Shown here: piece by piece, positions 27,642 to 48,729 of the stretch | Layout of the letters: the number at the start of each line of letters is the position of its first letter | Numbering within the stretch: position 1 is the first letter of the stretch | Assembly (NCBI GenBank): GCA_946407495.1 | Contig: CAMJOB010000006.1 | Location: 1-48,729, forward strand | Direction of reading: 5' to 3' | Length of the DNA: 48,729 nucleotides | Source of the DNA: an uncultured Bacillota bacterium | GTDB lineage: Bacteria; Bacillota_I; Bacilli_A; RF39; UBA660 | Notes under the pieces: generated by a model | Told to the model about the DNA's origin: nothing | The model's input: the letters and a program-made list of their open reading frames with translations, nothing else | Database searches by the model: none | Translations under genes and position numbers: made by a program

Positions 27642-27850
27642 ACAAAAAAAGATGGTACCAAAGGGCGTCAAATGGACGCGGTACCACCTTTTTTAGACTC
27701 AATATTTTAACGGAATAACCGGAATTATTTACTCTTAGTTCAATAATTCTGCTCCTCTGCTACCTTCTGTAATTATCCCTGTTTCTTTCCACCTAGCCAG
27801 AAACTCTCTATAAAGGCATCTTACATACTCCTCAGATTCCTCGCACATAT
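27642..27850 (-). promoter_or_regulatory. T-box riboswitch controlling valS
   Basis: On the minus strand, Stem I has AGTA (GAGGAGTATG) opposite GAA (ACAGAAGG), the loop E pattern, followed by the likely specifier GUA (27761-27763, on the minus strand) for tRNA-Val(UAC). The T-box core GGTGGTACCGCG pairs in the terminator with GGTACCATC (27651-27690), followed by seven T. High uncharged tRNA-Val should favour antitermination. Between the terminator and valS (27541-27641) lie only the short leader frames described separately. Confidence 0.93.
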
Positions 27851-47767: not shown

Positions 47768-47872
47768 CCCTTTTCACATCCTTATCATAATTATAACAAA
47801 TATTTCAATTTTTTTCGATTTTTTTTATGAAAATATTATTTTTTTTCGAATAATATATTGAGGTGTATTTTT

Positions 47873-48613
47873 ATGAACAAAGATATTATGTTATTGTATG
47901 ACAAATTTATTAAGATTAAAAAGATGGGTTTTGTTAGATCAATGAGATCTGGCCCTACTGGCATTGGTTATACTTTTGAGACTTTACTAGGTAAAAATGA
48001 GGATAAATTAATTAGTCCAGACTTTGGTAGTGTTGAGATTAAAACAATGACTATTTTAAGTAGAAGAAAGCTTCATCTATTTAATGCTACTCCAGATGGG
48101 GACTTAGCTTTGCCTATAAAAAGAATTCTATATCTTCTAGGTTATCCAGATAGGCAAAATCCGACATTTAAAGTCTTTAATATGGACGTTAATGCTAAGA
48201 GGTATACATGGATAGGATACTATAAAAAGATAAAACTATACGTGAATAAGCATGATAAAAAGATAGAATTATTTGCTTGGCGTTCTAATGGACAAATGAT
48301 AGATGTTCAAACATCATGGTCATATTCATTACTAGAAGAAAGATTAAAACAAAAATTAAAATATTTAGCTATTGTTGAAGCTGAGAAAAAAGTTATAAAT
48401 GGTATTTATTATTATCACTATAAAAGAATATCTTTTTACGAATTAAAAAACTTTAAGAAGTTTATTAAACTAATAAAAAAAGGTAAAATTAAAATTACCT
48501 TTAAGATTAGTACTATAAGGGATGGCGAAAGAATTGGAGAAATTCATGATCATGGAACAGATTTTTCCATATTGTTTAAAGATATTCCAAAGTTATATAA
48601 AAGAATCTATTAA
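47873..48613 (+). CDS. MvaI/BcnI-family restriction endonuclease-like protein, solitary
   Basis: A 246-residue nuclease. The N-terminal half has SGPTGIGYTFETLLG (residues ~27-41), then ISPDFGSVEIKTMTI (~51-65), the PD-(E/D)xK catalytic set of the MvaI/BcnI family (D and ExK), and HLFNATPDGD. The C-terminus has IHDHGTDFSILF. MvaI and BcnI nick CC(W/S)GG-type sites, and the family is related to the mismatch-repair nuclease MutH. No methyltransferase is next to it: the 5' neighbour is the divergent 564-aa gene and the 3' neighbour is a tRNA. ATG 47873 follows GAGGTG; an upstream in-frame start is not needed. Confidence 0.82.
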   Translation: MNKDIMLLYDKFIKIKKMGFVRSMRSGPTGIGYTFETLLGKNEDKLISPDFGSVEIKTMTILSRRKLHLFNATPDGDLALPIKRILYLLGYPDRQNPTFKVFNMDVNAKRYTWIGYYKKIKLYVNKHDKKIELFAWRSNGQMIDVQTSWSYSLLEERLKQKLKYLAIVEAEKKVINGIYYYHYKRISFYELKNFKKFIKLIKKGKIKITFKISTIRDGERIGEIHDHGTDFSILFKDIPKLYKRIY

Positions 48614-48637
48614 ATGGGACCTGGGGTGCAGGTTAAA

Positions 48638-48672
48638 AAGAAAAGACCTATATTTCTATAGATCTTTTTATT
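48638..48672. terminator. Terminator between nuclease gene and tRNA-Pro
   Basis: AAAAAGA(C/T)CTATA-TTTC-TATAGATCTTTTT, near-perfect stem flanked by A-run and T-run. Confidence 0.85.
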
Positions 48673-48678
48673 CATAAA

Positions 48679-48729
48679 TGGTCGGGAAGACAGGATTTGA
48701 ACCTGCAACCCCTTGGTCCCAAACCAAGT
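48679..48729 (-). tRNA. tRNA-Pro (UGG), 3' part, cut by window edge
   Basis: On the minus strand the visible part begins in the anticodon stem: CTTGG/CCAAG with loop TTTGGGA (anticodon TGG), variable region, T arm GCAGGTTCAAATCCTGT, acceptor 3' strand CTTCCCG, discriminator A and encoded CCA. The 5' third lies beyond the right edge. Confidence 0.93.

Follow-up and report, generated by a model that had tools for sequence, protein, structure and literature searches.

Introduction

What does a restriction endonuclease do in a chromosome where no methylase stands beside it? Restriction enzymes of this solitary kind remain puzzling, since an active one would be expected to be lethal to its host. 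In the available part of the survey by Ershova et al. (2012), 272 such genes are counted, 116 of which are left once distant methylases and gene fragments have been assigned (PMC3488263), and the gene studied here resembles them in being a restriction endonuclease gene without an adjacent methylase. It lies near the end of the window, by which we mean the whole stretch of DNA analysed (48,729 nucleotides). The window is one entire contig, ending inside a tRNA-Pro gene, from a genome that is 68% complete (1.14-Mb assembly, 52 contigs). The features that bear on the question are these:

47860 to 47865, plus strand: likely ribosome-binding site (GAGGTG), 7 nt 5' of the ATG, read from the sequence
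47873 to 48613, plus strand: solitary MvaI/BcnI-type (PD-(D/E)XK) nuclease of 246 aa, from the ATG at 47873 to the stop codon at 48613
48615 to 48634, plus strand: inverted, degenerate tRNA-Pro copy, equalled by 0 of 5000 dinucleotide shuffles; the alignment spans 48615-48638
48641 to 48669, no strand assigned: terminator-like hairpin between the convergent genes, probably bidirectional, read by eye
48679 to 48729, minus strand: 3' portion of tRNA-Pro(TGG), truncated where the contig stops; the Rfam tRNA match covers 48682-48729

An in-frame TTG at 47858 is a candidate alternative start for the nuclease. The tRNA-Pro was missed by ARAGORN and found by Rfam, whose matches in the window amount to one T-box and two tRNAs; the T-box leader lies at 27658-27850 on the minus strand (123 bits).

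Results and Discussion

An MvaI-type nuclease, far closer to restriction enzymes than to MutH

The protein is confirmed as a member of the PF15515 family by a full-domain profile match, a catalytic D...ExK and an MvaI fold. The Pfam match to MvaI_BcnI (PF15515) covers residues 10-242 with an E-value of 3e-36 and 126 bits against a cut-off of 25, and a profile built from 60 relatives finds R.MvaI at 4e-64 and R.BcnI at 3e-15. The AlphaFold2 model (pLDDT 94, pTM 0.89) superposes on the MvaI-DNA complex 2oaa with a TM-score of 0.89 in Foldseek, and its six top structural matches are MvaI and BcnI, both of them DNA enzymes. The earlier note had described the catalytic motif as intact, and so it is: D50, E55 and K57 are unchanged in all 60 alignment rows of relatives. 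The fold and the catalytic D/E/K are thus common to the nuclease, R.MvaI (CC|WGG; PDB 2oa9/2oaa) and R.BcnI, and a C-terminal HDHGTxF stretch is common to the nuclease and MvaI. Unlike those two enzymes, the nuclease has no linked methylase and is found recurrently beside tRNA genes, often with an inverted piece of the tRNA. A role in mismatch repair, suggested earlier from kinship with MutH, finds little to stand on. MutH shares a distant similarity of fold, but it is only a weak structural match (Foldseek E 0.078, TM 0.36) and the nuclease is far closer to MvaI and BcnI, which led us to reject a MutH-like repair nickase.

No linked methylase and no added avoidance of CCWGG in carriers

The solitary status of the gene, also asserted in the earlier note, was upheld at several scales. 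In the window, the neighbours of the nuclease are the tRNA-Pro and, upstream on the opposite strand, a 564-aa ORF with no match over a curated cut-off, so that no methyltransferase adjoins it. A methyltransferase just outside the window, which would lie beyond the contig end in the tRNA, appears unlikely from the relatives: in most of them a tRNA-Pro comes next 3' of the nuclease, in many cases with more tRNAs after it. In the whole genome of the window, 68% complete as it is, there is no match to PF00145 or PF01555. As far as these two families go, the linked cognate methyltransferase of a Type II R-M system was not found.

We searched for the same two families in 56 hand-picked near-complete carriers of the nuclease (two of them with 7% contamination), in genome G323 and in 23 non-carriers. 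At E <= 1e-10, PF01555 was found in 25/56 carriers and PF00145 in 21/56; 36 had either and 20 neither, although in two of these 20 (G114 and G214) PF01555 does match weakly and over a short length, yet above the Pfam cut-off. Among non-carriers, strong matches were found in 15/23 for PF00145 and 5/23 for PF01555. Leaving aside the canonical R-M locus of G323, the closest strong methylase match on the contig of a nuclease copy is about 15 kb away (G242).

It could be argued that the nuclease belongs to an ordinary R-M system with its methylase elsewhere in the genome, and the 36 near-complete carriers with a strong match to one of the two families agree with this. Against it stand the 20 with neither PF00145 nor PF01555 at that level, and the existence of canonical MvaI-type R-M loci of the same class. 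Two of these, L202 and L064, lie beside a C5 methylase (for L064, the ORF is identified as such because of the PF00145 match at G323:C16), a third, L203, lies beside a methylase-like ORF, and none of the three has a tRNA in the stretch covered. We consider ordinary restriction very improbable.

Neither do the carriers bear the mark of an unprotected MvaI activity. CCWGG occurs at 0.67 of its Markov expectation in carriers and non-carriers alike, with 23 sites in the window, so avoidance relative to non-carriers, which would have been a sign of such activity, was rejected. With CCWGG no rarer in carriers, the specificity of the nuclease is not simply that of MvaI, or the enzyme is held in check. 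Judged from site counts, the frequency of CCWGG argues against unchecked cutting of this sequence without a methylase.

A recurrent address beside tRNA genes

PF15515 matches are present in 111/386 genomes of the same family (107 over the cut-off) and in 0/14 control genomes; a phylum-wide sample of 392 genomes, some of them of the same family, gave 12, with 10 over the cut-off. We read the surroundings of 113 copies, after excluding seven weak or N-terminal-only rows and merging two pairs of adjacent pieces. Of these copies, 72 are convergent with a tRNA-Pro at no more than 400 bp from its 3' end (71 with anticodon TGG, one read as CGG) and 3 more lie within 1.1 kb of a tRNA-Pro. Another 9 follow tRNA-Leu(TAG) in the same direction within 400 bp, with 2 more within 1.3 kb, and 5 are located 5' of a tRNA-Arg or tRNA-Ala gene. 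For 8 copies, the window included, the contig ends less than 300 bp downstream, and for 6 it starts less than 700 bp upstream. No tRNA is in range of another 7, and the last copy is the canonical R-M locus. The address was recovered in a replicate, a scan of named genome contigs that yielded 80 loci, 40 of them new with respect to the first sample by a 60-base test. Among the new loci, 33 lie within 600 bp of a tRNA-Pro; in the remaining 7, two contigs end in tRNA-Pro, two have a truncated tRNA-Pro end, two are at 1.3-1.5 kb from a tRNA-Pro and one is beside tRNA-Arg. On the other side of the nuclease, upstream, 41 loci show neighbours of differing size and direction, though several genomes have the same ones.

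The named records come from metagenome assemblies, many of them from animal guts, and carry labels such as Bacilli, Erysipelotrichaceae, Tenericutes, Clostridia and similar. A phage origin of the nuclease was rejected: there were 0 matches in 50,697 phage records, and the six relatives on viral contigs have no tRNA in the stretch covered, which in one case stops at a contig edge. Plasmid relatives are remote (27-37% identity, 14 records).

Several peculiarities of these loci deserve mention. The nuclease gene of L163 (G049) sits inside a tRNA cluster, between tRNA-Phe and tRNA-Arg, and the orientation of a tRNA-Ala/tRNA-Pro pair with respect to the nuclease is reversed from L133 (G353) to L058 (G061), which come from two species of the same genus. 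In L089 and L097, ORF ends abutting the tRNA-Pro resemble, by eye, the C termini of tyrosine recombinases. A longer protein also exists: a 467-aa ORF (L195:2068-3471, G367) has a weak PF15515 match confined to its N terminus, and frames of 478-494 aa with similar N-terminal matches occur in G034, G038, G057 and G293.

Kept by selection, gained or lost as a unit

The earlier note had read the place next to a tRNA gene as fitting an acquired gene. The place itself recurs across the host family, as described above, but recent acquisition is not generally indicated, because the copies of a genus mostly fall together and the gene is under purifying selection. Indeed, dN/dS lies between 0.07 and 0.21 in 15 close pairs. 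In a nuclease tree covering 105 of the 113 copies, a single branch sets the main-lineage copies of a genus apart from all others in 19 of the 25 genera that have at least two; the genus of the window is one of the six exceptions. Rapid horizontal spread is not evident.

Empty sites were found in five genera (G193/G061; G142 and G381/G246; G136 and G378/G318; G314/G131; G182/G048), where the tRNA-Pro flank of the non-carrier continues into the gene that is the upstream neighbour of the nuclease in the carrier. The unit is thus a discrete stretch of about 1 kb between terminator and neighbour that is gained or lost. Discrete presence and absence between relatives is what a homing endonuclease would leave, and simple loss fits too. 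Loss by deletion is weakly hinted at by 16 bases in the flank of G142 that match the G323 relic.

An inverted piece of the tRNA next to the nuclease

In many loci, the stretch from the stop codon of the nuclease to the terminator-like hairpin contains a degenerate tRNA-Pro copy, spanning about positions 30-55. In the main lineage its tRNA sense lies on the nuclease strand, and it is therefore inverted with respect to the tRNA gene. In the window it reads TGGGACCTGGGGTGCAGGTT (48615-48634) and covers the anticodon loop, the 3' side of the anticodon stem, the variable loop and the start of the T-stem; the antisense match is null there, 986 of 1000 shuffles being as good. Across loci, a sense match to tRNA-Pro at p<0.02 was obtained in 42/71 and an antisense match in 0/71, with p-values that treat loci singly even though those of one genus are not independent. 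When flanks of equal length (150 nt) were compared, the inverted piece was found at p<0.02 in 39/72 carriers versus 2/34 non-carriers (Fisher 5e-7), the controls being consensus-leaning, since they are the best matches to one tRNA-Pro sequence (34 of 36 testable). Copies in direct orientation were found in 1/72 and 0/34. In the replicate, 22/33 loci have the inverted tRNA-Pro piece. It went undetected in 33/72 carrier flanks and 11/33 replicate loci.

Three other explanations for the piece were discarded. As a general feature of tRNA-Pro flanks it would have to be common in controls, where it was seen in only 2/34, one of these being locus L076. As a known RNA family it should be visible to Rfam, which gives only tRNAs in seven loci. 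As the repeat of a far-end attachment site it should have a partner in the 5' flank, where matches to tRNA-Pro are at chance level (p<0.02 for 3/72 in sense and 1/72 in antisense, by single-base and not dinucleotide shuffles, as also in the tests of the second clade with tRNA-Leu and of the 5'-side loci described below).

Integration at tRNA-Pro enters a further explanation, in which mobile elements of the host family use the 3' ends of these genes as attachment sites. The nuclease would then be directed against arriving elements with tRNA-like sequence, and the piece would act as a decoy or a regulatory site. PADLOC does label the nuclease a Type II REase, and tRNA-Pro ends of 17 nt at displaced copies (L035, L054, L221 and L287, by eye) suggest later insertions. 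The piece, however, comes from about positions 30-55 of the tRNA and these attachment-like remnants from its final 17 nt, and the lack of relatives among the phage records and of tRNAs beside the viral-contig copies also tells against such a role. We deem it quite unlikely. The remnants are worth describing for themselves: by eye, L035 and L054 have a truncated tRNA-Pro end of about 17 nt 3' of the nuclease gene, shorter ones are found in L132 and L150, and L221 and L287 have a tRNA-Pro 3' end of about 17 nt behind the nuclease gene without the remaining tRNA. They suggest attachment remnants of elements that later inserted at tRNA-Pro.

The piece also exists without an adjoining gene at three tRNA loci, two of tRNA-Pro (L076 and L334) and one of tRNA-Leu (L322). 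The last is from G030, which has a nuclease copy at its tRNA-Pro, and its piece is found behind the tRNA-Leu in apparently non-coding DNA. L076 and L334 come from two species of one genus, and the nuclease is absent from that place. What is found there (L076:1752-2765 in G100, and L334 in G220) is an Abi_2/AbiD-like gene convergent with tRNA-Pro, with the inverted piece between the two. Abi_2 (PF07751) is itself an oddity: it occurs in 347/372 genomes of the same family versus 1/14 controls, none of those over the cut-off, and such near-universality in the host family is unexpected for a presumed abortive-infection gene.

The piece follows the tRNA of its host

The match of each piece to the core of its own host was summed over 74 loci, which between them have 22 different tRNA-Pro cores. 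The sum was 1626, compared with a mean of 1432 (sd 22) when cores were permuted, and 0/5000 permutations did as well. In 40 hosts the core departs from the consensus; there the piece is closer to the host's core in 21 cases and to the consensus in 7, with 12 ties. The inverted piece follows each host's own tRNA sequence. One genus illustrates this well: its nucleases branch as (G216,(G092,G367)) with support of 99 and 98, and both tRNA and piece read CCTAGG in G216 and CCTAAGGG in G092 and G367.

The match is almost never perfect, as 1/59 fragments is free of lesions over positions 31-51. In 38 fragments of the first sample, 28 lesions fall at tRNA positions 39-40 versus 13.3 expected (0/5000), and in the replicate, where 26 of 33 loci entered and 21 fragments were over the score limit, 11 do versus 6.9 expected (346/5000), the top two-position peak being at 46-47. 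We treat the peak at 39-40 as a lead, because the site was selected once the data had been inspected. The two positions make up the CC in GGGACCAAGG, and this CC could correspond to that of the CC|WGG of MvaI.

A second clade with another tRNA

The nuclease tree contains a second clade of 16 rows (SH-aLRT 98), in which the piece is found after tRNA-Leu and ahead of the start codon of the nuclease. It is an inverted copy of the tRNA(CAT) found upstream of tRNA-Leu, and not of the nearer tRNA-Leu. Where both tRNAs are in view, it was detected in 10/11 loci versus 2/26 controls (Fisher 2e-6; 26 of 30 tRNA-Leu control loci were testable), and matches in direct orientation were found in 1/11 versus 0/26. 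Similarly, L042 and L133, where the nuclease gene is 5' of the tRNA, have inverted pieces of the 5' halves of tRNA-Arg and tRNA-Ala. L061, L163 and L180 have no such piece of their adjacent tRNA, and L061 has a direct-orientation resemblance to tRNA-Pro.

The orientation of these pieces bears on the possibility that the system works at the level of RNA, with a protein acting on tRNA or on RNA-DNA hybrids and a transcribed piece that restrains it as a tRNA mimic, much like a toxin and its RNA antitoxin. In the main lineage the piece is indeed in sense behind the nuclease gene and before a terminator-like hairpin, and the available part of one report has MvaI and BcnI able to cut RNA/DNA hybrids, in the case of MvaI on the DNA strand (PMC7337904). 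But in the second clade, and in L042 and L133, the nuclease strand carries the piece in antisense, and the six best structural matches are DNA enzymes. An RNA-level system appears improbable.

The piece could keep up with the tRNA in two ways. Template switching across inverted repeats is a known mutational route that homogenises imperfect ones, according to the parts available of three sources (PMC8604942, PMC7202029, PMC3820800). It could renew the piece, and so could selection for matching. If renewal by template switching is all there is, the locus may be a matter of inertia: an ancient gene vertically kept at tRNA-Pro, accompanied by a functionless by-product of repair. Such an account would agree with the one-sided branching in 19 of 25 genera, with the homogenising effect just cited and with the three loci where the piece has no adjoining gene. 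It is harder to reconcile with gene-free tRNA flanks that mostly lack the piece (present in 2/34 and 2/26), with a second clade that draws on tRNA(CAT) instead of the nearer tRNA-Leu, and with the uneven distribution of imperfections in the first sample. We regard it as rather unlikely.

A resident nuclease aimed at tRNA genes?

The reading that we tentatively put forward from these sequence comparisons is that of a resident nuclease acting on tRNA-gene DNA, with the inverted piece as a cleavage-resistant counterpart or scar; we hold it as possible, with some doubt. A restriction enzyme of MvaI type would have given rise to a free-standing nuclease that settled at the flank of a tRNA gene in a host family made up mostly of gut bacteria, the home sites being tRNA-Pro(TGG) for the main lineage and the tRNA(CAT)-tRNA-Leu(TAG) pair for the second clade. 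There it would recognise DNA inside the tRNA gene, perhaps the CC at positions 39-40 and its surroundings, and behave as a resident, homing-like or locus-guarding enzyme in the manner of SegB from phages. The inverted piece would then be a cleavage-resistant counterpart of the target, or its scar; its likeness to the tRNA would be restored by copying between the two arms of the inverted repeat or maintained by selection. The enzyme might also act on tRNA genes while they are transcribed, given that MvaI and BcnI are described as cutting RNA/DNA hybrids in the part of the source already cited (PMC7337904).

A nuclease aimed at the tRNA is supported by the recurrent tRNA location in the first sample and the replicate, by the enrichment of the inverted piece in carrier flanks in both clades and the replicate, by a piece that tracks the host tRNA and whose first-sample lesions cluster at 39-40, and by purifying selection, empty sites and the precedent of SegB. 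It is weakened by the fact that the host tRNA gene keeps the putative target sequence without known protection. It is also weakened by the loci in which the piece is undetected (33/72 and 11/33) and the three where it is gene-free, by a lesion peak that is post hoc and weaker in the replicate, with the top peak elsewhere, by the lack of evident rapid horizontal spread, and by a CCWGG frequency no lower in carriers.

One can go further and imagine a two-part system at the tRNA locus, in which a nuclease aimed at tRNA-gene DNA or at an RNA-DNA hybrid is paired with a cis-encoded, cleavage-resistant inverted mimic that co-evolves with the host tRNA and sets the target or the immunity, one clade having been retargeted from tRNA-Pro to tRNA(CAT). 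We think this unlikely; if true, it would be a tRNA-gene-addressed nuclease system of a kind for which we found no description.

Relation to known systems and significance

Two endonucleases of tRNA loci invite comparison. I-Ssp6803I, a homing endonuclease of the PD-(D/E)XK fold, belongs to an intron in a tRNA gene of a cyanobacterium, and is hence another case of a restriction-enzyme fold employed at a tRNA gene; it differs in sitting in a group I intron, whereas the tRNA flanked by our nuclease is uninterrupted. SegB is a free-standing homing endonuclease of the GIY-YIG class, a fold unrelated to that of the nuclease, and it is phage-borne whereas the nuclease is chromosomal. For the nuclease, homing-like behaviour is a proposal. 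In T4-like phages, according to the portion of the source available, SegB co-localises with tRNA genes and cuts inside them (PMC13096335). The nuclease shares the place beside tRNA genes, while cutting within them is a property of SegB and putative for the nuclease; no host-following inverted tRNA piece is described for SegB in that portion (PMC13096335).

As for solitary restriction enzymes, the terms tRNA, MvaI and CCWGG are absent from the main text of Ershova et al. (2012), as far as its available part goes (PMC3488263). Likewise, the open-access matches listed, in the parts available, hold no description of an MvaI-type nuclease linked to a tRNA and accompanied by an inverted piece, which suggests that the nuclease and its tRNA-linked piece form an undescribed tRNA-linked nuclease unit.

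What we describe is a large lineage of solitary nucleases that purifying selection maintains, that return to one kind of genomic site and that are accompanied by a sequence tracking the host's tRNA. The recurrent address and the companion sequence make the role of a restriction fold without a methylase directly testable, and the 22 variants of the tRNA-Pro core, each with its own nucleases, are a natural set from which the recognition of the enzyme may be worked out. If the nuclease is aimed at tRNA genes, it would be a chromosomal PD-(D/E)XK counterpart of the tRNA-locus endonucleases of phages.
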